A stretch of 64,000 bases of DNA. Source: Dysgonomonas sp. HDW5A (GTDB lineage Bacteria; Bacteroidota; Bacteroidia; Bacteroidales; Dysgonomonadaceae). Positions within the stretch are counted from its first letter, which is position 1, and every line of letters begins with the position of its first letter. Positions 6,587 to 48,187 of the stretch are shown in pieces. The notes below the pieces were generated by a model. The model was given only the letters and a program-made list of their open reading frames with translations. It was not told the origin of the DNA and did no database searches. Location: assembly GCF_011299555.1 (NCBI RefSeq), contig NZ_CP049857.1, forward strand, positions 3,720,001 to 3,784,000, given 5' to 3'. A program made the translations under genes and the position numbers.

Positions 6587-6650
6587 TTGCTTTAGTATTA
6601 AAATAATTAAAAGACCCAAAAAGTTATTTTTGAAAAAATGAAGAAAATTA

Positions 6651-6680
6651 TTTGTTAATTCTATTTTTTTCATAACTTTG
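6651..6680 (+). promoter_or_regulatory. trp operon promoter (Bacteroidetes -33/-7 type)
   Basis: TTTG at 6651-6654 and TAACTTTG at 6673-6680 match the Bacteroidetes primary sigma consensus (TTTG, TAnnTTTG) with an 18-base spacer, slightly under the usual 19-21. Transcription would start near 6687, just ahead of the trp leader peptide. Confidence 0.7.
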
Positions 6681-6703
6681 CAAATATCATAAAGAAATAA
6701 GAA

Positions 6704-6763
6704 ATGAATTTTCAATTGACAAATACATATTGGTGGTGGAGCTTACAACTTAAAAAGTCGTGA
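6704..6763 (+). CDS. trpL: trp operon leader peptide (attenuator)
   Basis: A 19-codon frame encodes MNFQLTNTYWWWSLQLKKS and ends with TGA at 6761-6763. Three consecutive Trp codons (6731-6739) are very unlikely by chance in a peptide this short. It sits 24 bases after the predicted promoter and 112 bases before trpB. The stop codon lies inside TCGTGAG (6758-6764), which can pair with the terminator hairpin downstream. This is the arrangement of a ribosome-mediated transcription attenuator: scarcity of charged tRNA-Trp stalls the ribosome on the Trp codons and leaves the antiterminator strand free. The codons and complementarity are seen directly; the mechanism is inferred by analogy with enteric trpL. 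Confidence 0.9.
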   Translation: MNFQLTNTYWWWSLQLKKS

Positions 6764-6831
6764 GTCAGGTCAATACGTATTAATCAGTAGAAAATGATTA
6801 TATAATAAATGAAAGCCTATCGTCCTCACGA
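6758..6831 (+). promoter_or_regulatory. trp antiterminator pairing (6758-6764 with 6825-6831)
   Basis: TCGTGAG at the end of trpL is the exact reverse complement of CTCACGA in the loop and 3' arm of the terminator. A ribosome that reaches the trpL stop codon would cover it; one stalled on the Trp codons would not. A small hairpin (TAATCA 6781-6786 with TGATTA 6795-6800) and a palindrome at 6773-6782 in between may bring the two strands together. Confidence 0.75.
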
Positions 6832-6843
6832 TAGGCTTTTTTT
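6812..6843 (+). terminator. trp attenuator terminator
   Basis: A perfect 12-bp stem (6812-6823 with 6828-6839) with a 4-base loop CCTC runs into a T tract ending at 6843. It lies between trpL and trpB, so it is a conditional terminator. Confidence 0.9.
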
Positions 6844-6875
6844 CGTGAAATAGGAAATAACAAAACAAATATATA

Positions 6876-8069
6876 ATGGGAAAATTTAATGTTGATGCGA
6901 ATGGATTTTATGGAGAGTTTGGAGGGGCTTATATTCCTGAAATTCTCTATGATAATGTAGAAAACTTAAAGAATGCATACTTACAAATACTGGATGATTC
7001 TACTTTTCAGAAAGAATACCATGATTTGCTGCGTGACTATGTAGGCAGACCTTCGCCTCTTTATTTAGCAAAAAGATTATCCGAAAAATACGGATGTAAA
7101 ATATACTTGAAACGTGAAGATCTTAATCACACAGGTGCTCATAAAATAAACAATACTATTGGCCAGATAATTTTGGCTCGCAGAATGGGTAAAACCCGTA
7201 TCATTGCAGAAACAGGAGCTGGACAGCATGGTGTTGCAACAGCCACCGTTTGTGCATTAATGGATATGGAGTGCATTGTATATATGGGTGCTACCGATGT
7301 AGAGCGTCAGAAATTGAATGTTCAGAAGATGGAAATGTTAGGGGCAAAAGTAGTACCTGTAACAAGCGGTAACATGACATTGAAAGATGCAACTAATGAG
7401 GCTATAAGGGATTGGTGTTGTAATCCTTCGGATACTTATTATATAATTGGTTCAACAGTGGGGCCACACCCATATCCCGATATGGTGGCACGCCTTCAAT
7501 CGGTTATCAGTGAAGAAACACGCAAGCAACTACTTGAAAAAGAAGGACGGGAAACACCCGATTATGTAATAGCCTGTGTTGGTGGTGGTAGTAATGCTGC
7601 GGGCATGACTTATCACTTTCTGGATGATGCCAATGTTAAGATTGTATTGGCAGAAGCAGCCGGAAAAGGGGTAAATTCAGGAGAATCGGCTGCAACTATC
7701 CATCTTGGGAAATTAGGTATTATTCATGGCAGCAAAACTTTGATAATGCAATCGGAAGATGGTCAGATCGAAGAACCTTATTCAATATCAGCAGGTTTGG
7801 ATTATCCCGGTATTGGGCCATTACATGCACATTTAGCTAAAACAGGACGATCGGAAGTATTGGCTGTTACCGATGAAGAAGCCATTGCTGCTGCATTTGA
7901 ATTAACCGAACTCGAAGGGATTATTCCCGCTATAGAATCAGCTCACGCATTAGGAGTATTTGGTCAAAAGAAATTCAAGGCAGACGATGTTATTGTACTT
8001 TGCTTGTCGGGGCGTGGAGATAAGGATATGGAAACTTATGTACGAATTAAAGAAGAATCTAAAAAATGA
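6876..8069 (+). CDS. trpB: Tryptophan synthase beta chain
   Basis: The 397-residue PLP enzyme condenses indole with serine as the beta subunit of the TrpA2B2 complex. The PLP lysine is in GAHKINN (Lys90), the phosphate-binding loop is GGGSNA near residue 236, and the [10 protein letters not shown] and AETGAGQHG blocks are canonical TrpB1. It is the first structural gene of the trp operon, directly behind the attenuator, while its partner trpA is the last gene about 8 kb away. Its stop overlaps the trpE start by 4 bases (ATGA), which suggests translational coupling. A second, TrpB2-type gene lies further down the same operon. Confidence 0.97.
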
Positions 8070-9472
8070 AAATAAAGATACAAACTCAAACAAAAAAGCT
8101 TCTGGCTGATATGCAAACCCCTGTAGGCATATATTTGAAAATTAGAGATGTATATACAGAGTCGGCATTGCTCGAAAGTTCGGATTTCCATACCAATGAC
8201 AATAGTTTTTCGTTTATAGCCGTAGATCCTATTGCCCGTTTTAAGGTGGAAAACAATCAGGTTATCAAGCAATACCCATCCGGCGAAATAGTTGAAAAGC
8301 CTTTACTAGAGTCAGATCAGCTTACATCTGTTTTTCAGGAATTTATACACGAATTTGATGTGAAAGGAGAGAATTCTACAGGCATGAATGGTTTCTTCGG
8401 ATATACATCGTATGACGCAATTCATCATTTTGAAGATGTCGATTCTGAAAACTTTAAGTTAGACAATTCAGATGTTCCTGAATTTTATTATATCCTGTAT
8501 CGTTTTATTATTGTTATCAATCATTTAAAAAATGAATTAACCATCGTAGAAAATGTGGTAGAAGGAGACACTTCTCGAACAGAAGAATTGGAAGCGATAT
8601 TAATGAACAACAATATAGCAACTTACAATTTCGAAAGCATTGGCAATGAATGTTCTTATATAACAGACGAAGAACACATTGAAATGATAAAAAAAGGTAT
8701 TGCACATTGTAAGCGTGGAGATGTCTTTCAGATTGTATTATCTCGTTGTTTCACTCAGAAATTTAAAGGAGATGAGTTCAATGTTTACAGAGCATTACGT
8801 TCTATAAACCCGTCACCTTATTTGTTTTTCTTCGATTTTGGTTCATTCCGGGTATTTGGTTCTTCTCCTGAAACACATTGTAAGATAAGTAAAGGAAAAG
8901 CATATATAGATCCTATTGCGGGAACTTACTTCCGGACAGGTGATGATGAAAAAGACCGTGTATTATCAGAAAATTTATTGAAAGACGAAAAAGAGAATGC
9001 AGAGCATGTAATGCTTGTTGATCTTGCCCGCAACGATTTGAGTCGTAATTGTCACGATGTGAAAGTTGATTTTTATAAGAATGTACAGTTTTACTCTCAT
9101 GTAATTCACCTTGTATCTCGTGTGAGTGGAACTATAGATAAGGATATTGACAGCATCAAAGTATTTGCTGATACATTCCCTGCCGGAACTTTATCTGGAG
9201 CACCCAAAGTAAGAGCTATGCAATTGATTCGTGACATCGAGAAATCAATGCGTGGAGTTTATGGTGGTTGTATCGGATATATCGGTTTTAATGGAGATCT
9301 TAATCAGGCAATAACCATTCGTACATTCCTAAGCAAAAACAATACGCTTTATTATCAGGCGGGTGGGGGAATAGTTGCAAAATCTATTCCAGAAACTGAA
9401 GTGATGGAAGTGAAAAATAAACTCGGAGCTTTAAAAAAGGCTGTTGATTTTGCTGTAACAATAAAAAATTGA
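8066..9472 (+). CDS. trpE: Anthranilate synthase component I
   Basis: The 468-residue chorismate-binding subunit makes anthranilate from chorismate with ammonia from TrpG. The N-terminal LLES motif (residues 35-38) is the tryptophan feedback-inhibition site. The catalytic half has the family blocks [18 protein letters not shown] (usually PIAGTRPRG), [21 protein letters not shown] and YYQAGGGIV. The length is typical for Bacteroidetes TrpE. It overlaps trpB by 4 bases and trpG begins 5 bases after its stop. Enzyme activity would be inhibited by Trp and expression controlled by the attenuator upstream. PabB is an alternative in this superfamily but the LLES motif and the operon favour TrpE. Confidence 0.96.
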
Positions 9473-9477
9473 ATTTT

Positions 9478-10044
9478 ATGAAAATATTAATTTTTGACAA
9501 TTACGATTCATTTACATATAATCTGGTTCATCTAGTAAAACAACTTGGATATACAGATGTAGATGTTGTTCGAAATGATAAAATAGCATTAGCCGATATA
9601 GCACAATACGATAAGATTATCTTATCACCCGGTCCGGGTATTCCATCCGAGGCAGGTTTATTATTGCCTTTAATAAAGGAATATGCTTCAACCAAACCTA
9701 TCTTGGGAGTATGCTTAGGACATCAAGCGATAGGAGAAGCATTCGGTGCTAATCTGGTAAATCTGGAAGATGTATATCATGGTATTACAACGAATGCCAA
9801 TATCGCTGCAGACGATTATATTTTGGAAGGTCTTGATAAAGAAATAGAAGTAGGTCGCTATCACTCATGGATTGTAGATTCAAAAAATCTTCCCGAATGT
9901 TTCATTGTAACTGCCTTAGATAATGACGGACAGATTATGGCTATGAAACATAAAGAATACGATGTGCATGGTGTACAGTTTCATCCCGAATCTGTATTAA
10001 CCCCTCAAGGAGCAATAATCGTAAAGAATTTTTTATCAAAATAA
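9478..10044 (+). CDS. trpG: Anthranilate synthase component II (glutamine amidotransferase)
   Basis: This 188-residue class I amidotransferase releases ammonia from glutamine for TrpE. Catalytic Cys79 is in GVCLGHQ, and the His-Glu pair is in VQFHPES near residue 170. I start it at the ATG at 9478 (MKILIFDNYDSFTYN), the canonical TrpG N-terminus; a TTG three codons earlier would overlap the trpE stop and adds nothing conserved. It is a free-standing subunit, not fused to TrpD. It may also serve p-aminobenzoate synthesis, as in Bacillus, but no pabB is in view. Confidence 0.95.
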   Translation: MKILIFDNYDSFTYNLVHLVKQLGYTDVDVVRNDKIALADIAQYDKIILSPGPGIPSEAGLLLPLIKEYASTKPILGVCLGHQAIGEAFGANLVNLEDVYHGITTNANIAADDYILEGLDKEIEVGRYHSWIVDSKNLPECFIVTALDNDGQIMAMKHKEYDVHGVQFHPESVLTPQGAIIVKNFLSK

Positions 10045-10096
10045 CTAGCATTCAATTTAAGCTAAAATCTAATATTATTTAAATAAGCAATTTGTT

Positions 10097-11452
10097 ATGT
10101 CAAAGAAGATACTTTTAAGCGAAGATGAGATTCCAAAACAATGGTATAATATTGTAGCAGATATGGTAAACAAGCCTTTACCTCCATTGAATCCTGCTAC
10201 AAAAGAGGTACTGAATGCCGAAGATTTAGAACCCATATTTGCCAAAGAACTTATCGAGCAGGAAATGTCTCAAGAGAGATGGATCGATATTCCGGAAGAA
10301 GTAAGAGAACTATATAAAATATGGAGACCAACTCCACTGGTGAGAGCAACAGGATTGGAAAAGGCTTTAGGTACGCCTGCTCATATCTATTTCAAGAACG
10401 AAAGTGTGAGCCCTATCGGATCTCATAAATTAAATTCTGCATTGCCTCAGGCATATTATAATAAGAAACAAGGGATCAAGCGTTTGACAACCGAAACGGG
10501 AGCCGGACAATGGGGAGCAGCATTAAGTTTTGCCTCGAGTGTATTCGGTCTGGATTTGGAAGTATATATGGTAAAGGTGAGCTATGAGCAAAAGCCATAC
10601 AGACGGATGATGATGCAAACATGGGGTGCCAATGTAATAGCTTCGCCAAGTAATAAAACCGAATCAGGAAAAAGTGTACTAGCTAAAGACCCCAATAATT
10701 CGGGAAGTTTAGGTATTGCTATTTCGGAAGCGGTAGAAATGGCGGCCAAAGATCCCGATACCCGATATACCTTAGGTAGTGTTTTGAATCATGTTTCATT
10801 ACACCAAACTGTAATTGGTCTGGAGAGCGAAAAGCAAATGGAAATCGCAGGAGAATATCCTGATATAGTTGTCGGATGTTTTGGTGGCGGTTCTAACTTT
10901 TCCGGAATAAGTTTTCCTTTTCTTCGTCATAAAATACTTGATGGAAAAGGTATTCGTATCATTGCATCTGAGCCTGCCTCATGTCCTAAATTATCGAGAG
11001 GTAAATTTGAGTATGACTTTGGTGATTCAGTTGGTTTAACTCCTCTTTTACCCATGTACACGCTTGGCCATGACTTTCAACCGGCTGATATACATGCTGG
11101 AGGATTGAGATATCATGGAGCAGGAACTATTGTTAGTCAATTACGCAAAGACGGATTGATAGAAGTTCAGGATATTCCTCAATTGGAAACATTCGAAGCT
11201 GGTAAACTATTCGCAAATACAGAAGGAATTATTCCTGCACCCGAATCAACACACGCTATTGCGACCGTAATACGTGAGGCTTTGAAAGCTAAAGAGGAAG
11301 GTGTCCAAAAAAACATACTATTTTGTTTGTCAGGACATGGTTTAATCGATATGACAGCTTACGATCAGTATTTAACAGGAAATATGTCGAATTACAAGCT
11401 GACAGATGAAGAAATCAGTAAAACGACAAAAACATTAGAAAAATTAGCCTAA
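10097..11452 (+). CDS. trpB2: TrpB2-type tryptophan synthase beta-like protein
   Basis: The 451-residue protein belongs to the TrpB2 branch of PLP fold-type II enzymes: it is about 50 residues longer than TrpB1, with an extended N-terminus, and reads GSHKLNSA around the PLP lysine (Lys111), AETGAGQWG-like TETGAGQWG and CFGGGSN for the phosphate loop. TrpB2 proteins generally lack the TrpA-contact features of TrpB1; they act as stand-alone indole-salvage tryptophan synthases or, in some archaea, with TrpA2. It lies between trpG and trpD, only 5 bases ahead of trpD, so it is expressed with the pathway. Its presence beside a normal trpB suggests indole salvage or use of scavenged indole, which is inference. 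Confidence 0.92.
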
Positions 11453-11457
11453 AAACG

Positions 11458-12456
11458 ATGAAACAAGTATTAAATAGATTATTCAATCACCAACAGTTGA
11501 GCCGTGTAGAATCGAAAGATATACTGACTCGCATATCGAACGGTGAATACAACCACTCTCAGATCGCTGCCTTTATTAGTGTTTATCTGATGCGCAGTAT
11601 CAGTATAGATGAGTTTCTCGGTTTTACCGATGCACTGCTCGAATTGTGTGCGGATGTAACACCTTTGGCATCTTACAATCCGGTAGATATTGTAGGTACG
11701 GGAGGAGATAATAAGAACACATTCAATATATCGACCTTGTCATGTTTTACAGTGGCAGCGGCAGGATATAAGGTCGCTAAACATGGTAACTACGGGGCAA
11801 CATCCGTTAGTGGTGCTTCAACCGTGATGGAACAGCACGGTGTGAAGTTTACAGCAGATGTAAGTAAGTTGGAGAAATCATTAGCTGAAATTAATATTGC
11901 TTATCTGCATGCTCCTTTATTCAACAATGCGTTGAAAGAAGTTGCACCTGTCCGTAAGGCTTTAGGAGTACGTACTTTCTTTAATATGTTGGGGCCTGTA
12001 GCTAATCCGATTCGTCCTAAGAGAAGCGTGCTAGGGGTATTCAATCTTAAAATGGCTCGTATGTATTATTATATGTATCAACAGACTGATGTTGATTATG
12101 CAATTGTACATGGTTTGGATGGTTACGATGAAATATCCTTAACCGGCGATTTTAAAGTAATAAACAGATATTCTGAAAGTATTTATTCACCGGAATTATT
12201 GGGATTTGAAAGATGTTCGGAACTTGATCTGGATGGTGGTAAAACCCCCGAAGACGCATCGGATATTTTTGATAACGTAATCAATAATACAGCAACAAAA
12301 GCACAGAAGAATGCAGTAATTGCCAATTCGGCAATAGCTATTCAAACGATTGACCCGACTCTTTCTATTGAAGAATGTATTGCACAAGCTACAGAAGCCA
12401 TAGAAAGTGGTAGATTAAAATCGACCTTTAAACGATTCTTAGAGCTAAACAGTTAA
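11458..12456 (+). CDS. trpD: Anthranilate phosphoribosyltransferase
   Basis: The 332-residue enzyme transfers phosphoribosyl from PRPP to anthranilate. The PRPP-binding GTGGD motif is at residues 80-84, KHGN at 108-111, and the anthranilate-site block VAPVRKALGVRTFFNMLGPVANP is present. Length is normal and there is no fused amidotransferase domain. It follows trpB2 by 5 bases and is followed after 19 bases by a small chorismate-mutase-like gene. Confidence 0.95.
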   Translation: MKQVLNRLFNHQQLSRVESKDILTRISNGEYNHSQIAAFISVYLMRSISIDEFLGFTDALLELCADVTPLASYNPVDIVGTGGDNKNTFNISTLSCFTVAAAGYKVAKHGNYGATSVSGASTVMEQHGVKFTADVSKLEKSLAEINIAYLHAPLFNNALKEVAPVRKALGVRTFFNMLGPVANPIRPKRSVLGVFNLKMARMYYYMYQQTDVDYAIVHGLDGYDEISLTGDFKVINRYSESIYSPELLGFERCSELDLDGGKTPEDASDIFDNVINNTATKAQKNAVIANSAIAIQTIDPTLSIEECIAQATEAIESGRLKSTFKRFLELNS

Positions 12457-20698: not shown

Positions 20699-21766
20699 CT
20701 ATCTTTTTACAAAATCAACAATCCAATCTCCAACTTCAGATGTCGTATAGGATTTTCCGTTAGAAGCAATATCTTCCGTTACAATGCCTTCTTCTAAAGA
20801 CGCATTTACTGCATCACGAATGATTTTTCCTTCTTTTTGTAAATCAAAAGCATACTCGAACATCATCGCTGCCGATAATATGGTAGCCACAGGATTCGCA
20901 ATATTCTTGCCTGCTGCCTGAGGATAAGACCCGTGAATAGGTTCAAATACCGATGTGTGTATACCAATGGATGCCGATGGCAACATACCTAATGAACCTG
21001 TAATAACAGAAGATTCGTCAGTAAGAATATCACCGAATAAGTTTTCTGTAACTAATACATCAAAACGTTTTGGCCATTGAATAATCTGCATAGCAGCATT
21101 ATCAACAAACATATATTCTGTTTCAACATCAGGATACTGTTTCTCGATTTCTTGAGCTACTTCTCTCCATAAACGAGAAGTACAAAGCACATTTGCTTTA
21201 TCTACAACTGTCACTTTTTTGCGACGTTGGCGTGCATATTTGTAAGATAGATGAAGTATGCGTTCTACTTCTTCACGAGTATACACACAAGTGTCATACG
21301 CAGTATTTCCATCCTCGCTTCTTCCTTGAGGACGTCCAAAATAAAGACCTCCTGTTAGTTCACGTATGCACATAAAATCAGCACCGTCAACTAGTTCTGC
21401 ACGAAGAGGCGATTTGTGTATTAACGATGGGAATGTATTGATAGGACGAAGATTTGCATATAATCCCAGATCTTTGCGCATTTTCAATAAACCTTGCTCG
21501 GGTCTAACTTTTGCCGATGGGTTGTTATCATATTTAGGATCTCCGATAGCACCAAATAAAACAGCATCAGATTCCATACAAAGTTCGTGTGTAGCATCAG
21601 GGTAGGGGCTTCCCACTTCATCAATGGCACATGCTCCTACAATACCATATTCATATGATAATTCGTGACCGAATTTCTCGCAAACAGCTTCAGTAACTCT
21701 TAAAGCTTGTCCAATAATCTCAGGACCAATACCATCTCCGGGTAGTACCGCAATATTTAATTTCAT
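20699..21766 (-). CDS. leuB: 3-isopropylmalate dehydrogenase
   Basis: The 355-residue enzyme oxidatively decarboxylates 3-isopropylmalate in leucine synthesis; it can often also act on the citramalate-derived 3-methylmalate for isoleucine. The N-terminal [10 protein letters not shown], the substrate block [11 protein letters not shown] (usual for IPMDH), [22 protein letters not shown], and the NAD-binding [17 protein letters not shown] motif are all present. It is the last gene of the minus-strand leu operon, ahead of a strong terminator. Confidence 0.95.
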
Positions 21767-21833: not shown

Positions 21834-21848
21834 AAGGTCTGTGACCTT
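21834..21848. repeat. GGTC-N3-GACC palindrome, copy at the synthase stop codon
   Basis: AAGGTC-TGT-GACCTT is a perfect inverted repeat whose edge overlaps the stop codon of the upstream minus-strand synthase gene. Similar copies lie at 24071-24083, 37438-37452 and 57446-57461. Confidence 0.55.
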
Positions 21849-23358
21849 ACATATCTTCAATAATATTCAACATCTTTTCTGTAGCTTTTACAGCTGCTTC
21901 CGTTTGATCAGCATCTAATCCTCTTGTCTTAAACACTTTATCATTGAATTTCCATGAGATAACAGTTTGCACCAAAGCATCTGTGCGTCCTCCCGGAGGA
22001 ATAATTACTGAGTAGTTTACCAGATCGGGTTTAGGCTTATCTAATTTTGTGTAAATTTTCCACAATGCTTTCGAGAATGCATGATATTGTCCGTCACCCG
22101 GTGCCGTTTCTTCGTATTCTTTTCCATTTATCTCGATGCGAACAGAAGCCGAAGGACGTACTCCTTTTGACAATATAAAGGCAAAAGCTATTATTTTTAC
22201 TTGTTTGTCTTTTTCGCTGTTTCTCAGAACATCAGAGATTATATAAGGTAGGTCTTCCTGGGTGATGACTTCTTTCTTGTCACCCAATTCTATGACCCGA
22301 TTGGTAACCTTTGCCATTTCGGTTTCATCCAGCTCTATGCCTAAAGCTTCGATATTTTTTCGAATATTGGCTTTACCAGACAATTTGCCTAAGGCATATT
22401 CTCTCACCCTGCCAAATCGTTCGGGGTATAAATCGTTATAATACAAATTGTTTTTATTATCTCCATCTGCGTGAATTCCGGCACATTGAGTAAAAACATT
22501 CTCTCCTACAATAGGCTGATTCGCAGATATTGTTAAGCCAGAATAGGTTTCAACAACACGGCTTACACGATTTAATTTTTCTTCCTTGATTGTGGTTTCA
22601 ACATTCAAATGATCATGCAAAACAGCAATAACACTCGATAAGCTTGCATTTCCGGCACGCTCACCTAAACCATTCATCGTAACATGTACACCTTGTACTC
22701 CAACTTCCACAGCTACCATAACATTGGCAACTGCTAAATCATAATCATTGTGTGCATGAAAATCAAAATGTAGTTTCGGATATCGTTTAGTCATTCTGCG
22801 ACATGCCCTCCAAGTGGTATGTGGATTGAGTATACCCAAAGTATCAGGAAGCATAAAACGTTTGATTGGCATATCTTTTAGGTTATCAACCATAAAGTAT
22901 ACGTAATCTTCCGAATTAAGAATACCATTAGACCAATCTTCAAGGTAAATATTCACATTCAACCCCATCTCTTGTGCCAAATATACTTCGGCTTTTATAT
23001 CATCAAGATGTTCTTGGGGTGTTTTGCGTAGTTGCTCAGTTACATGCTTGTAAGAACCTTTAGTTAAAAGGTTTACTGTATTACATCCAACATCTTTAAT
23101 CCATTGTAGAGAAGCCCCTTTATCGATAAAACCTAAAATTTCGATCTGATCGATATATCCGGCACCTCTAGCCCAATCCGTAATTTTTTTTACTGTTTTA
23201 AATTCACCATCCGATACACGGGCTGATGCAATTTCGATGCGGTTGACTCCCAGATCAACCAACAACAGGTGGGCAATACTTAATTTCTCTTGCGAGGAAA
23301 ACGAAACTCCTGAAGTTTGTTCACCGTCACGCAAGGTGGTATCCATTATTTCTAACAT
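21847..23358 (-). CDS. cimA: Alpha-isopropylmalate/citramalate synthase family (CimA-like)
   Basis: The 503-residue protein is a DRE-TIM metallolyase. It starts [17 protein letters not shown] (the DTTLRDGEQ catalytic motif) and has the HxH metal ligands in FDFHAHNDYDLAVAN and the GLGERAGN loop, followed by a C-terminal regulatory domain (LKGVRPSASVRIEINGKEYEE region). It is a clear paralogue of leuA in the same operon, but the two are divergent. A citramalate synthase making the isoleucine precursor from pyruvate and acetyl-CoA, with LeuCD and LeuB doing the next steps, would explain its place. A second 2-isopropylmalate synthase is the alternative; substrate specificity is inferred from context. 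Confidence 0.72.
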   Translation of the reverse strand: MLEIMDTTLRDGEQTSGVSFSSQEKLSIAHLLLVDLGVNRIEIASARVSDGEFKTVKKITDWARGAGYIDQIEILGFIDKGASLQWIKDVGCNTVNLLTKGSYKHVTEQLRKTPQEHLDDIKAEVYLAQEMGLNVNIYLEDWSNGILNSEDYVYFMVDNLKDMPIKRFMLPDTLGILNPHTTWRACRRMTKRYPKLHFDFHAHNDYDLAVANVMVAVEVGVQGVHVTMNGLGERAGNASLSSVIAVLHDHLNVETTIKEEKLNRVSRVVETYSGLTISANQPIVGENVFTQCAGIHADGDNKNNLYYNDLYPERFGRVREYALGKLSGKANIRKNIEALGIELDETEMAKVTNRVIELGDKKEVITQEDLPYIISDVLRNSEKDKQVKIIAFAFILSKGVRPSASVRIEINGKEYEETAPGDGQYHAFSKALWKIYTKLDKPKPDLVNYSVIIPPGGRTDALVQTVISWKFNDKVFKTRGLDADQTEAAVKATEKMLNIIEDM

Positions 23359-23438: not shown

Positions 23439-24029
23439 TTATAATATCTGATCTTTTTCGTATTCTTCTATAAGGGCTTTTTTTGATAGTAGATAATCAA
23501 TATCATCTAAGCCTTTAAGTAAACACTCTTTTTTATAAGGGTTTATTTCAAAAGATTCTGATTTTCCTGTAGCATTATTGGTTATCGTCTGTTTTTCCAG
23601 ATTGATTGTTAGAGTTGCTTTAGGATCTTTATTTACACTGTCAAATATTTCAGCTAAAAATTCAGAGCTAACAATAACAGGCAATAGACCGTTATTCAAT
23701 GAATTATTTTTAAAAATATCAGCAAAAAAACTAGATACTACAGCTTTAAATCCATATCCCACGATAGCCCATGCAGCATGCTCACGACTAGAGCCGCTAC
23801 CGAAGTTTTTTCCTGCTACCAAAATTTCACCACTGTATGTTAGGTTATTCAATACAAAGTCAGCTTTAGGTTTTCCTTCTTTGTCATAACGCCAGTCAGC
23901 AAATAAATTGTCTCCAAAGCCTTCTTTTGTTGTAGCTTTTAAGAAACGGGCAGGTATAATTTGATCTGTGTCCACATTCTCAATGGGTAGTGGAACATAT
24001 GTTGATGTTAATGTTTGAAACTTTTCCAT
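23439..24029 (-). CDS. leuD: 3-isopropylmalate dehydratase small subunit
   Basis: The 196-residue subunit pairs with LeuC to isomerise 2- to 3-isopropylmalate. The N-terminal [20 protein letters not shown] and the [16 protein letters not shown] swivel-domain motif are diagnostic for LeuD. It lies 53 bases after leuC on the minus strand, with a short palindrome in the gap. Confidence 0.95.
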
Positions 24030-24070: not shown

Positions 24071-24083
24071 AGGTCTTCGACCT
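24071..24083. repeat. GGTC-N3-GACC palindrome, copy at the leuC stop codon
   Basis: AGGTC-TTC-GACCT is a perfect inverted repeat adjoining the leuC stop codon. On the minus strand it is followed after 8 bases by TTACTTAATT, a box also seen near the copy at 57446 and after purH. Confidence 0.5.
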
Positions 24084-25474
24084 TAAAACGTTCTTGGGTC
24101 TGTTATCTTCCCTGTAATTGCTGCTGCTGCCGCAACTAATGGACCAGCCAAAATAGTACGTGCTCCGGGACCTTGGCGACCTTCGAAGTTACGGTTTGAT
24201 GTTGAAATTGCATATTTGCCTGCGGGAACTTTATCATCGTTCATGGCCAGACAAGCCGAGCATCCGGGTTGACGCAAAGCAAAACCTGCTTCAATAAGAA
24301 TGTCGTATAAACCTTCTTCACGTATTTGTTGTTCAACCATCCAACTTCCGGGAACAAGCCAAGCTATAACATTTTCGGCTTTTTTCTTTCCTTTAATAAA
24401 ATTAGTAAATGCACGGAAATCTTCGATACGACCATTCGTACAGCTACCTAAAAATACGTAGTCAATTGGTTTCCCTTCCAATTTCTCTCCCGGTTTGAAA
24501 CCCATATAATCCATTGATTTCTGGAACGAGATACGACCTGCTTCGTCTATTTCATCTAATGTAGGAATAGTGTCATTTACAGCCATCCCCATACCCGGAT
24601 TGGTTCCGTAGGTAATCATTGGTTGAATATCAGCCGCATCGTATACTAATTCTTTATCGAATTTTGCACCTTCATCTGTTTTCAATGTTTTCCAATACGC
24701 TAAAGCTTTATCCCAAGCTTCTCCTTTAGGTGCAAATTCACGACCTTTTACATAAGCAAAGGTAGTCTCGTCCGGAGCAATTAATCCTCCACGAGCACCC
24801 ATTTCGATACTTAAGTTACAAAGGGTCATTCTTTCTTCCATCGACATATTGCGAATAGCTTCTCCTGCATACTCAACAAAATAGCCGGTAGCTCCACCTG
24901 TAGTAAGTTTAGCAATCATATAAAGAGCTAAGTCTTTAGCTGTAACGTCTTTATTTAATTTGCCATTAAAGGTGATACGCATCGTTTTAGGACGACTTTG
25001 TAATATACACTGAGTGGCAAGTACCATTTCAACTTCGGAAGTGCCGATACCAAAAGCAATTGAACCAAAAGCTCCGTGTGTAGAAGTATGACTGTCTCCA
25101 CAAACGATAGTCATCCCCGGTTGAGTATAACCGTTTTCCGGCCCGATGATATGAACAACACCATTCTTTTTATTTCCCAAAGCATATAATGTCAATCCAA
25201 ATTCAGCAGCGTTTTTAGACAACGTATCCAGCTGATTTCTTGAAATCGGATCTTTAACCGGTTGGTCTTGATTAATTGTTGGGGTATTGTGGTCTGCTGT
25301 TAAAGTTGTTTTGTCAGGACGGAGCACTGTAAGTCCTCTGGTTCTTAATCCATTAAAAGCTTGCGGGCTTGTTACCTCATGGCAGAAATGTCTGTCAATA
25401 TACAATTGAGTGGGGCCGTCTTCTACGGTTGATACTGTGTGGGCATCCCAAATTTTGTCGAATAATGTTTTCAT
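24083..25474 (-). CDS. leuC: 3-isopropylmalate dehydratase large subunit
   Basis: The 463-residue aconitase-family subunit carries the catalytic 4Fe-4S cluster. The three cluster cysteines are in GSCTNGR and [10 protein letters not shown], and the N-terminal DKIWDAHTV and [21 protein letters not shown] blocks match LeuC. Length is typical. Its start overlaps the stop of the membrane acyltransferase gene by 4 bases, so that gene is part of the operon. Confidence 0.96.
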
Positions 25475-26556
25475 GCTGAAATATTATTTGTTGATCTTTT
25501 TTTGATTAGTTTTTTTCCTAGATTTTGTCCGGGAACTTCTATAAATTTATATGAGAAATAAGAAATTGTATAAGTTAAAACGGAAACTAAAATATATAAA
25601 AGGATATAGTTTATTATGGACGTAAATAAATTGGTAACAGGTATAATACGTCCTATTCCAAAGCTATTCATCATTATAATAAGAAAGAAATGCACAATAT
25701 ACATACTAAAACTCACTTGACCGACTTTAGACAACCATTTATTACAAAGTATTTTGTATGGTTTCTTTTGCAATACGAAAATAGCGATACAAAATATGAT
25801 TGTGTAAAATAAATAATAGGGTACTCCCATATAAGTAAATAGAAACAATGCTATTATGAGTAGTAACCATGTCTTGTTATTTATCTTAGTATAACTCTCT
25901 TTAGTTAACCAATAAGCAAATATTCCGATAAAGAATACAGGTAATTGGTAATAGAAGCTTATCTGATGAAAATCTAATTGGAAAAATACAAACCTATCCT
26001 TAACAATATACATAAACAGTGTTGCAACTATCAGACTGGTAAACAGGGCAACCGCTGACATATTTATATTCTTGATCCGTGATGCGATAAATGGAAATAT
26101 AATGTAAAATAAAAACTCTACCGAAATAGACCATCCTCCGGGTACTATAGTTTTGATCCAATAAGGATTAAGTGTATTTAAGAATAAGAAATTACTTATG
26201 TACCACGGTGTTGTTAAAGTATCCCAGTTTTGTGCATCTAAGTGAATGTAATATGCTGTTATAACTAATATAGCCAAATAATACATGGGAGCTATTCTGA
26301 AAAAACGCCTGATATAAAAATTTGATGTTCCGTTCTTTTCACCAGCTCTTCTCTCAAAAGAAAACATTAGAGTAAAAGAACTGATTATGAAAAATAATTG
26401 AACGCCAATTCTCCCATTATATAGAATCCCAAATAGTAAATCAGGAAAATATTCGGTTGTTGAAATCTTGAAGAAATTACCAACATGTACCATTAAAACC
26501 ATTAATACGGCAATTCCTCGTAAACTATCTATGTATTCGTATTTTTTAGTTTCCAC
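25471..26556 (-). CDS. Acyltransferase-3 family membrane protein
   Basis: The 361-residue protein has about ten membrane helices and begins [20 protein letters not shown], the RGIA/H signature of acyltransferase family 3 (OafA, OatA, NodX). The [13 protein letters not shown] and [16 protein letters not shown] blocks are also family motifs. Such enzymes O-acetylate sugars of lipopolysaccharide, peptidoglycan or exopolysaccharide. It is unexpected between leuA (15-base gap) and leuC (4-base overlap) and should be under leucine attenuation. A role in leucine synthesis is not suggested by the family; it may be a late insertion that preserved operon structure. Confidence 0.85.
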
Positions 26557-26571
26557 TAATTAGCGATTGGT

Positions 26572-28062
26572 TTATTTTACAAATTTATTAATTGCATTGA
26601 TAAATGCTTCAACAGATGCTGCTACAATATCGGTATTTGCTGAAAAACCATAATAATTTAGTCCTTCGTGCTCTACTTGCATATGTACCTTACCTACATC
26701 ATCGCTTCCTTTATTGATAGCCTGAATTAAAAATTCCTGTATAATAGTTTCGCGACGAATTATCTGTTTTACCGCTTTAATTGCTGCATCAACAGGTCCA
26801 TTACCTGAAGCTGATGCCTCGAATTTTTCACCGGCAATATCAATGCCAACGTTAGCAATACAGCGAACTCCGATACCTGATGTTACTTGCAGATAGTCTA
26901 ACTTAATGCGATGCATTTTATCAGTTTCTTTTCCGGCAAGAATCAGAATATCTTCATCCGTAATATCTTTCTTTCGGTCTGCAAGTTCTAAAAAACGCTG
27001 ATATATTTCGGCTAATTCACTATCATTAACTTCAATTCCTAAAATACTCAATCTATTCTTTAAAGCTGCACGTCCGCTACGGGCAGTAAGTACAATCGCA
27101 TTATCATCTATACCGACATCTTTGGGGTCGATAATTTCATAAGTCGACATATTTTTAAGTACTCCATCCTGATGTATTCCCGATGAATGTGCAAATGCAT
27201 TTCTACCTACAATAGCTTTATTGGGCTGCACAGGCATATTCATTAAACTGGATATCATACGACTCATAGGATATATCTTTTGAGTATTGATATTCATTTC
27301 GATATCCAATTCCTTATGACTCTTTATTGCCATAACAACTTCTTCTAAAGAGGTGTTTCCTGCACGTTCGCCAATTCCATTAATCGTAACTTCAACCTGA
27401 CGTGCACCATTCAATACTCCCATAATAGAATTGGCTGTTGCCATTCCTAGATCTTGGTGACAATGTGTCGAAAGGATGGCATTTTTCATGTCTACATGAT
27501 CGATCAGGTATTTAATTTTCGCACCATATTCTGTTGGTAAACAATAGCCTGTTGTATCAGGAATATTTACTACAGTGGCTCCTGCATTGATAACAGCTTG
27601 TACCACTCTTGCCAAATAAGCATTATCGGTTCTGCCTGCATCTTCTGCATAAAATTCAACATCTTCTACAAAGCGTTTTGCATATTTTACGGCAGCAATG
27701 GCACGTTCTACAATTTCGTCCTGTGTAGAGTTAAACTTATGTTTTATATGGAAATCAGAAGTTCCGATTCCTGTATGTATACGTTTTTTCTTGGCATACT
27801 TGAGAGCTTCGGCAGCAACTTCTATATCTTTTTCAACGGCACGTGTGAGTGCACAGATAGTAGGCCATGTAACGGCTTTAGAAATTTCCACTACTGAATT
27901 GAAGTCTCCGGGACTTGATACGGGAAAACCAGCTTCTATAACATCAACACCGAGAGCTTCGAGAGATTTGGCTACTTCTATTTTTTCAATAGTATTCAAC
28001 TGGCAACCGGGAACCTGCTCTCCATCTCTTAATGTCGTGTCAAAAATAAATAATTTGTCCAT
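26572..28062 (-). CDS. leuA: 2-isopropylmalate synthase
   Basis: The 496-residue enzyme condenses 2-oxoisovalerate with acetyl-CoA, the committed leucine step. The [15 protein letters not shown] motif, the metal-binding [11 protein letters not shown] (HxH) and [14 protein letters not shown] are in the TIM barrel, and the C-terminal LeuA dimer/allosteric domain ([12 protein letters not shown]) is complete, consistent with leucine feedback inhibition. It is the first structural gene behind an attenuator with its own leader peptide, about 118 bases from the leader stop. Confidence 0.95.
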
Positions 28063-28119
28063 ATATAATTTGTCTAAAGTATGTTTCTATTGTTAGCAAA
28101 CCGCTGATCTATTTAATAA

Positions 28120-28152
28120 AATAGCCCTTCTCTTAGAGTGAGAAAGGCTATT
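28120..28152 (-). terminator. leu attenuator terminator
   Basis: On the minus strand a 13-bp stem (28140-28152 with 28120-28132, one G-U pair) encloses a 7-base loop and is followed by TTTTATT. It lies between the leader peptide and leuA. Confidence 0.85.
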
Positions 28153-28204
28153 GCTATATCTGTTTTAATTATTCAACTACTACGCAACACTACTCACTCT
28201 AAGA
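28131..28204 (-). promoter_or_regulatory. leu antiterminator pairing (28193-28204 with 28131-28142)
   Basis: Twelve bases in the last third of the leader-peptide frame are the exact reverse complement of twelve bases covering the terminator loop and its flanks. Pairing would break the terminator. The position near the end of the leader frame means a ribosome finishing translation masks it, while one stalled at the Ile/Leu codons upstream exposes it. Confidence 0.78.
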
Positions 28205-28254
28205 TTTTCCCAGAGCAGAATGATAGAGCTAAGAATGTTCGTGAATAATTTCAT
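28180..28254 (-). CDS. leuL: Branched-chain amino acid leader peptide of the leu operon
   Basis: A 24-codon frame reads from the ATG at 28254 to TAG at 28182-28180. Codons 7-8 are Ile-Leu, 11-14 are Ile-Ile-Leu-Leu and 18 is Leu, so regulatory codons for the operon's end products are concentrated in the middle. It lies 29 bases after a near-perfect promoter. The end of the frame carries the 12-base strand that pairs with the terminator. The arrangement is that of a translation-controlled attenuator; the mixture of Ile and Leu codons fits an operon that also holds a probable citramalate synthase. The peptide itself should have no other function. Confidence 0.85.
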   Translation of the reverse strand: MKLFTNILSSIILLWENLRVSSVA

Positions 28255-28282
28255 TTCGATTTGAATTTTTATTTAGTAAGAG

Positions 28283-28313
28283 CAAAAATATAACATATTT
28301 CTTTAATTGCAAA
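28283..28313 (-). promoter_or_regulatory. leu operon promoter (Bacteroidetes -33/-7 type)
   Basis: On the minus strand, TTTG (28313-28310) and TATTTTTG (28290-28283) are separated by 19 bases, matching the Bacteroidetes consensus exactly. Confidence 0.82.
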
Positions 28314-47924: not shown

Positions 47925-48187
47925 TAGAAAAGGCAGACCATATTTAAATGATCTACCTTTTAGTATGAGAGAGCCGTACCGATGGATAAAGACGAAACTC
48001 CGTTAAACAGGATTTGAGTGCCTCCATCCCTTTGTAATTCACTGCGCCTAAGCAATCCCGAAGGATGTGACCCGCCATTAGAATAGAGAAGCTTGTCTCG
48101 GAATTCGTATGTAATTGATGAGTTTCCCAATCGACCAGTACGACTCAATATTTTAAAGAAGACTCTTCTTCTATTTGTTCTTAATTG
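47925..48187 (-). ncRNA. Candidate structured ncRNA, possibly 6S-like
   Basis: A stretch of about 260 bases between the feo locus and a GNAT gene has no convincing protein gene but has its own promoter (48194-48225), distinctly higher GC than its flanks, and a terminator hairpin (47928-47961). On the minus strand, GAGTCGTAC at 48146-48138 can pair with GTACGGCTC at 47979-47971, closing a structure of 176 bases; inside, GAAACTC pairs with GAGTTTC, CGAT with ATCG, and ATCC-TTCG-GGAT forms an apical UUCG tetraloop. A long closed rod with internal bubbles and this size fits 6S RNA. The 62-codon frame across it starts with TTG and is not persuasive. Family identity is inference. Confidence 0.5.
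47928..47961 (-). terminator. Terminator of the candidate ncRNA
   Basis: A 14-bp stem with two G-U pairs on the minus strand (47948-47961 with 47928-47941) has a 6-base loop and ends in four T. Confidence 0.7.

Follow-up and report, generated by a model that had tools for sequence, protein, structure and literature searches.

A putative leucine/isoleucine attenuator upstream of the leu operon of Dysgonomonas sp. HDW5A, with a core common to the ilvD leader

The leu operon and its leader region

The window analysed here, a stretch of 64,000 nt from Dysgonomonas sp. HDW5A, carries on its minus strand a leu operon in the order leuA-(acyltransferase)-leuC-leuD-cimA-like-leuB, preceded by a putative attenuator region at 28313-28120 (Table 1). 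The best matches of its LeuA are in Dysgonomonas sp. HGC4 and D. alginatilytica (99% protein identity). Between leuA and leuC, within the operon, lies an acyltransferase family 3 gene. Further downstream, a paralogue of LeuA has as its best NCBIfam model the citramalate synthase CimA, with a score that stays under the model's own cut-off. Citramalate leads to isoleucine via LeuCD and LeuB, so a leader containing both Ile and Leu codons fits this operon, in agreement with the first-pass annotation, which had related the mixed codons to a citramalate-type synthase.

Table 1. Features of the leu operon, its leader and two further loci in the window
Feature	Position	Strand	Details	Basis
Promoter	28283-28313	-	-33 TTTG 28313-28310, 19-nt spacer, -7 TATTTTTG 28290-28283	direct reading
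Leader ORF	28180-28254	-	24 codons, MKLFTNILSSIILLWENLRVSSVA; ATG 28254, stop TAG 28182-28180	sequence
Main control codons	28213-28224	-	ATC ATT CTG CTC (Ile-Ile-Leu-Leu)	direct reading
Predicted protector hairpin (region 1:2)	28197-28215	-	CTCTGGGA 28215-28208 with TCTTAGAG 28204-28197	fold, reading
Antiterminator 5' strand (region 2)	28193-28204	-	TCTTAGAGTGAG; conserved core GTGAG 28197-28193	
Antiterminator 3' strand (region 3)	28131-28142	-	CTCACTCTAAGA	
Second antiterminator helix	28184-28189 (5' strand)	-	TGTTGC 28184-28189 with GCAATA 28154-28149	minimum-free-energy fold
Intrinsic terminator hairpin (regions 3:4)	28120-28152	-	AATAGCCTTTCTC-7 nt-GAGAAGGGCTATT, then short interrupted U-run	
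leuA, 2-isopropylmalate synthase, operon gene 1	26572-28062	-		NCBIfam TIGR00973, 653.4 bits, over cut-off
Acyltransferase family 3 gene (Acyl_transf_3)	25471-26556	-		Pfam PF01757, 107.8 bits; no NCBIfam match
leuC	24083-25474	-		NCBIfam TIGR00170, over cut-off
leuD	23439-24029	-		NCBIfam TIGR00171, over cut-off
cimA-like LeuA paralogue	21847-23358	-	503 aa	best NCBIfam NF042433, 657.6 bits, below cut-off of 950
leuB	20699-21766	-		NCBIfam TIGR00169, over cut-off
trp leader and operon	6650-6850 (leader); 6876-12456 (operon)	+	MNFQLTNTYWWWSLQLKKS; promoter TTTG-N18-TAACTTTG	
Bacteroidales-1 RNA (6S suggested)	47966-48145	-		Rfam RF01693, 141.3 bits

The promoter, leader frame, terminator and 12-base complement that the first-pass annotation described were all found on the minus strand where it had placed them. 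TTTG-N19-TATTTTTG reads as a Bacteroidetes-type promoter. The leader peptide, 24 residues by direct reading, carries the I-L and I-I-L-L runs that had been reported. The terminator is indeed a helix of 13 bp, including one U-G pair, with a 7-nt loop and a predicted energy of -17.7 kcal/mol for the isolated 45-nt piece; an intrinsic terminator before the first structural gene, as expected of an attenuator, is present. The U-run that follows is weak in the window (longest T run 4), where a T run of at least 5 is seen in 63 of the 72 leaders compared below. The complement of region 2 had been assigned to the terminator loop; the match is exact, but its partner covers, besides the whole loop, 3 nt of the terminator 5' arm and 2 nt of the 3' arm. 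The terminator and antiterminator pairings therefore overlap and are mutually exclusive, the second feature that would be expected of an attenuator. Folded in isolation, the antiterminator piece (28215-28131) reaches a minimum free energy of -24.1 kcal/mol and so exceeds the terminator piece in stability.

Alternative pairings and leader peptides among relatives

A LeuA scan yielded 80 loci, of which 71 were aligned with the window to give 72 leaders; thinning of near-duplicates gave a subset of 52 rows. Left out were one locus at a contig end (L017), one with the same leader as L039 (L040), two false pattern matches (L035, L050), one with a variant core (L070) and four (L058, L061, L067, L082) that lack the motif over the 300 nt ahead of leuA. 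The 71 loci were chosen by a region-3 pattern containing CCTTT and CTC[AG]C (or CCTTTTTCG), with region 2 unselected; some of the constancy of region 3 therefore reflects the way the loci were chosen. At L070, a leuA locus outside the alignment, region 3 has CCTTTCCTGCTT and region 2 has GAAGCAGG, which are complementary by eye and would be a further compensation. Four loci in records labelled Apibacter and Flavobacteriaceae (L024, L025, L074, L075) combine LeuA of 82-86% protein identity with a Dysgonomonas-type leader, which suggests either transfer of the operon together with its attenuator or mislabelled MAGs.

The strict promoter pattern TTTG-N17-23-TAnnTTTG precedes the leader in the window, in all 20 aligned Dysgonomonas-group relatives (L003-L023), and in 34 of the 72 leaders overall, 29 of these with a 19-nt spacer. 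It is absent from the other 38, six of which have the -7 box only. In the stretch examined 3' of the leader stop, the pattern was found in none of the 72.

The exact 12-nt complement (28204-28193 with 28142-28131) is the sole one of such length in the 271-nt stretch tested, and a complement of 12 nt or longer, its halves 20 nt or more apart, arose in 7 of 2000 dinucleotide shuffles of a 214-nt region. The earlier claim that the match is hard to explain by chance is borne out to this extent, but its length had been overrated: the close relatives L003 and L004 have 6 contiguous antiterminator pairs. Since the closest relatives do not keep 12, the long match was dropped as the main evidence in favour of the conserved core, of which it is a lineage-specific extension. 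This 5-nt core (GUGAG:CUCAC in the window) matches G[UC]G[AG]G with CUC[AG]C or UUCGC, and each of its five pairs is standard in every one of the 72 leaders.

With no structure supplied, RNAalifold predicted a single helix for the 72 leaders, which is the antiterminator (6 pairs). One pair is U-A in 63 leaders and C-G in 9, without a break, and another pair also changes on both sides (G-C/A-U/G-U/U-A). Among the 52 thinned leaders, 98.4% of the 312 antiterminator cells and 96.3% of the 520 terminator cells are paired, and sliding the antiterminator partner strand by 1-3 columns lowers pairing to 38-75%. Double-changed cells numbered 25 in the antiterminator (shuffle mean 7.0) and 17 in the terminator (5.3), with 0 of 500 shuffles as high in either case, the shuffles being of a kind that does not preserve relatedness. 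Other measures were not above the shuffles: pairs changed on both sides numbered 2 in the antiterminator (314/500 as high) and 1 in the terminator (325/500), and pair-type counts were matched in 431/500 and 117/500, respectively. Covariation, which the first-pass annotation had proposed to look for, is thus present at two antiterminator pairs, with only some measures beating the shuffles.

A swap test compared mean duplex energies of the 72 native leaders with 1000 permutations, which likewise do not preserve relatedness. Native values were lower for the antiterminator (-12.15 vs -10.04, sd 0.24), for the terminator (-19.22 vs -17.01, sd 0.21), for region 1, made up of early leader codons, with the stretch after GUGAG (-9.69 vs -7.23, sd 0.28) and for the protector (-6.59 vs -5.75, sd 0.16). 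An unrelated spacer control also differed by about 2.5 sd (-4.76 vs -4.30, sd 0.18), which gauges how far relatedness inflates the test.

All 72 leaders have a short Ile/Leu-rich ORF of 17-28 aa in the corresponding position, with a median of 45% Ile/Leu/Val, a fraction biased upward because the ORF at each locus was chosen as the richest in these residues. Ile and Leu occur in all 72 and Val in 41, and the longest Ile/Leu/Val run is 4-7; a run of codons for the operon's own amino acids, typical of attenuators, is present throughout. In 45 of the 72 leaders the UGA stop falls within GUGAG. The codon usage of the leaders as a set is unlike that of the leuA genes, with CTA making up 27% of Leu codons (3% in leuA) and GTC 62% of Val codons (12%), a bias that is confounded by the base-pairing of the same nucleotides. 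Less subject to the bias in ORF choice are nearest-neighbour comparisons, in which Ile/Leu/Val positions keep their class in 343 of 355 cases and other residues are identical in 300 of 415, the two measures being different ones. Changes at codon positions 1, 2 and 3 number 83, 66 and 101, and the leader ORF looks like coding sequence.

Beyond these loci, LeuA matched in 35 of 89 genomes of the order searched at E 1e-150. A fixed-rule caller (ORF, terminator and antiterminator) was run on 33 of the 34 non-own matches, G230 being left out as already seen (L101), and on 27, from other orders, of the 58 non-own matches of a phylum-wide LeuA search. Among the 33 leuA upstream regions from the order it called 16, compared with 2 calls in 300 shuffled sequences; it found nothing in the remaining 17 nor in any of the 27 from other orders. 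Three of the 17 negatives (L138, L140, L142) resemble attenuators by eye and stay outside the counts. In five positives (L147, L149, L150, L159, L161) region 3 reads GCCATTCT(C) with a matching region 2, a further compensation.

Related leaders in the genome, family and phylum

A second branched-chain leader lies before ilvD in the same genome (G000:C1:1884801-1884922; L084, L127; 49.3 bits with model R1), with the peptide MSNCILHVLILDILLVGQSK and a hairpin, CCTTTCTCATTAGATGAGAAAGG, whose core is that of the leuA leaders; the first-pass annotation, which had a single window, could not see this resemblance. A search for the exact hairpin CCTTTCTCA...GAGAAAGG, as the pattern CCTTTCTCAN{2,20}GAGAAAGG, gave hits in 2 genomes of a 118-genome sample of the phylum (this ilvD leader and an unrelated site) and in 21 of the 41 family genomes. 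The family holds 24 distinct sites, each of them in front of leuA (17) or ilvD (7) and after an Ile/Leu/Val-rich ORF; some of the genomes with these sites are also among the 80 LeuA loci. As a control, the pattern written backwards had 9 strand hits in these 41 genomes, so that the bare pattern is not free of chance matches and it is the gene context that counts. The leuA hairpin of the window, GAGAAGGG, does not itself fit the exact pattern. Within the family, the exact hairpin is dedicated to branched-chain attenuators. To our knowledge, attenuators of different operons would not be expected to share sequence, and it is unusual for leuA and ilvD to have a dedicated hairpin in common.

Across 395 genomes of the phylum, model R1 had matches in 101 (E 0.01 or better), a figure that is not a count of attenuators. 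Of 29 loci inspected by eye (L098-L126), 19 were judged to be leaders with a fitting gene and nine (L111, L113-L117, L119, L121, L126) were rejected as ordinary terminators or nothing; L098 stands at a contig start and was not properly read. The leaders precede ilvE, ilvD, aspartokinase, trpE, acetolactate-synthase small subunit and O-acetylhomoserine sulfhydrylase genes, one gene of each kind being checked by NCBIfam or Pfam and the others named by resemblance. Those before aspartokinase genes carry Thr/Ile runs (L107, gene assigned by NCBIfam; L112 and L125, by resemblance). A Met/Cys-run leader, MMPMCMMMCCCCAKSTCENVLHKL, stands before the O-acetylhomoserine sulfhydrylase gene in G288 (L103, L132), and its GUGUGAGAAUG and CGUUCUCACAC are complementary by eye. 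For Actinobacteria, Cys leaders have been described without clear terminators (PMC1262725).

In the Dysgonomonas sp. HDW5A genome itself, 12 weak R1 matches were examined and only the trp locus (L091) was leader-like. The trp leader has a terminator AAAGCCTATCG...CGATAGGCTTTTTTT and an antiterminator UCGUGAG:CUCACGA, and precedes trpB (NCBIfam) and apparent trpE, trpG, second trpB and trpD genes. When the downstream leader is folded as a whole, the terminator is favoured, and the antiterminator emerges when region 4 is omitted. A His leader, MTRQLHHHHLYFSSFGK (G000:C1:302200-302375; L196), with promoter, terminator and a GGUAAGU:ACUUACC antiterminator, precedes hisG, which was identified by Pfam PF01634; a 100-aa piece of hisG in L196 had no NCBIfam match at E 1e-60. 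In both leaders the UGA stop lies in a GUGAG, which is part of the antiterminator in trp and adjoins it in his. Upstream of the genome's own aspartokinase-homoserine dehydrogenase, a search for Thr/Ile/Met/Lys-rich ORFs found no Thr leader.

Proposed mechanism, alternative explanations and significance

The leader of leuA-leuCD-cimA-leuB is very probably (about 90%) a classical ribosome-mediated transcription attenuator that senses the supply of leucine and isoleucine. As far as sequence and comparison go, this interpretation, already proposed by the first-pass annotation, is supported by established parts and positions, by the alternative pairings with their covariation and by the composition of the peptide; we infer the transcription start, the amino-acid dependence, pausing and coupling. 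RNA polymerase would start a few bases after 28283, and the short ORF would be translated without a Shine-Dalgarno site. At low levels of charged Leu or Ile tRNA, the ribosome would stall on the Ile-Leu or Ile-Ile-Leu-Leu codons and mask the 5' arm of the protector hairpin, leaving region 2 (AGAGUGAG) free. Region 2 would then pair with region 3 (CUCACU...) ahead of the synthesis of region 4, which would keep the terminator from forming and let the operon be read. With plentiful supply, the ribosome would reach the stop codon and mask region 2; region 3 would then pair with region 4 and transcription would end before leuA.

In a stall model that masks 12 nt from the A site and stops short of region 4, as yet untranscribed, the probability of the antiterminator core averaged 0.88 over 657 Ile/Leu/Val codons and 0.56 over 783 others, a difference that reflects the place of the codons in the ORF, as it is distance upstream of GUGAG that counts and not codon identity. 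The value of 0 at the stop codon is by construction. With no ribosome, the antiterminator probability is 0.75 in the window and has a median of 0.07 over the 72 leaders. Given this value and the greater stability of the isolated antiterminator, untranslated leader RNA of the window may terminate poorly. For the protector (1:2), the swap test backs the helix, yet the no-ribosome state of the window favours the antiterminator.

Three other explanations can be weighed against attenuation. A leader that binds a ligand or tRNA (a T-box or an unknown leucine riboswitch), with the short ORF incidental, would account for the riboswitch-like conservation of CCTTTCTC and GTGAG, and for a region-3 UUU that is invariant across the 72 leaders, with partners in region 4 that can be either A or G, a constancy that is partly selected through the CCTTT of the picking pattern. 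It would leave aside the Ile/Leu-rich ORF found in every leader with its residue class kept, and the similar leaders in which His, Trp, Thr/Ile or Met/Cys runs precede matching operons. Moreover, Rfam at gathering thresholds finds no family other than Bacteroidales-1 in the whole window and, at E 0.1 or better, none at the leuA leader locus (L083), and the T-box covariance model has no match in the window (gathering) or at the leuA leader locus (E 0.1). The Bacteroid-trp RNA (RF01692), which is linked to trp operons and Trp codons, was unmatched in the window (gathering) and in the leuA, ilvD, trpE and trpB leader loci (E 0.1). Sub-threshold matches were limited to Thr_leader at the aspartokinase leaders L107 and L125 and rnk_leader at the ilvD locus, and an Rfam identity for the leuA leader was rejected, as no family describes it. 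A binding leader of this kind is thus very unlikely.

Little can be said, too, for a constitutive terminator, or the 3' end of a small RNA, with leuA read from a second promoter after the hairpin: a TTTG-N15-TACTTTAG does lie between hairpin and leuA in the window (a weak match, by eye), but it fits the consensus poorly, the strict pattern lies upstream in 34 of the 72 leaders and, in the stretch examined, downstream of the leader stop in none, and such a terminator would leave the conserved antiterminator pairing unexplained, making this reading highly improbable. Nor is it at all probable that a trans-acting protein or RNA binds the GUGAG/CCUUUCUCA element shared by the leuA and ilvD leaders, with the peptide secondary. 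The restriction of all 24 exact-hairpin sites of the family to leuA and ilvD would suit such a factor, but in other genomes of the order this position is taken by another pair, likewise complementary (GAGAAUGGU:GCCAUUCUC and the like; L147, L149, L159, L161), which points to pairing rather than recognition, and the leader peptides track the amino acid of the operon. The constancy of the region-3 UUU as a sign of protein binding is weakened by the CCTTT-based picking and by other genomes of the order with GCCATTCTC and a fully matching region 2.

The closest known counterparts are peptide-leader attenuators of leu and ilv operons in Proteobacteria, where a short leader peptide with runs of cognate codons is combined with mutually exclusive antiterminator and terminator and the terminating ribosome masks region 2. 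The Dysgonomonas leader is predicted to be similar in all these respects. It differs in that its terminator and antiterminator sequences are conserved across genera and common to ilvD, in that the UGA stop often (45/72) lies inside the antiterminator element, and in that it sits in a phylum, the Bacteroidota, whose ribosomes do not recognise Shine-Dalgarno sites (PMC9976891). In the same phylum, strong clues for leader-peptide attenuation before amino-acid operons, by the same proposed mechanism, have been reported for Flavobacterium psychrophilum; that account is a general statement, with neither a shared leuA/ilvD core nor covariation in the passages concerned (PMC9723704). Short ORFs in long 5' UTRs, reminiscent of leader peptides, have been described in Bacteroides thetaiotaomicron (PMC7366714). 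Bacteroid-trp, like the Dysgonomonas leader, is a presumed cis-regulatory RNA of Bacteroidetes (PMC2864571), but differs in that its covariance model is unmatched here. The LEU element of Actinobacteria is likewise a conserved RNA with a leucine-codon ORF before leuA, but is described with a pseudoknot and a base stem that pairs leucine codons with the Shine-Dalgarno box; its authors considered classical attenuation unlikely, and the terminator architecture in Dysgonomonas differs from it as described (PMC1262725). The ilvB-II and ilvB-OMG uORF motifs are also attenuators with uORFs rich in branched-chain amino acids that were found as conserved RNA motifs, but they concern ilvB genes and are likened here by description (PMC10272879). 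In the literature searched no description of the leuA/ilvD element was found, and older surveys may hold predictions for the phylum. What is new is an unusually sequence-conserved attenuator with a core common to leuA and ilvD, the class of mechanism being already known.

It is conceivable, if doubtful, that the attenuators of Bacteroidota form one homologous family and did not evolve independently, the switch having been copied between leuA and ilvD, possibly with ilvE, his and trp included as well, and then adapted through an exchange of codons. What was copied would, just as tentatively, be a UGA stop inside GUGAG that pairs with the CUCAC of the CCUUUCUCA terminator. If true, interchangeable leuA and ilvD strands could let terminated leader RNA of one operon act in trans on the other, and transcription and translation would be tightly coupled in Bacteroidota.

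Of most interest are the hairpin dedicated to leuA and ilvD and the number of attenuator leaders in one genome. The attenuator reading provides a well-defined, testable regulatory RNA and a searchable motif in a phylum on whose amino-acid regulation little was found in print. Ribosome-mediated attenuation requires a ribosome close behind RNA polymerase, and a single genome with several conserved attenuators, for Leu, Ilv, His and Trp, would therefore argue for coupling of transcription and translation in Bacteroidota, a coupling that would extend to leader ORFs starting without a Shine-Dalgarno site.
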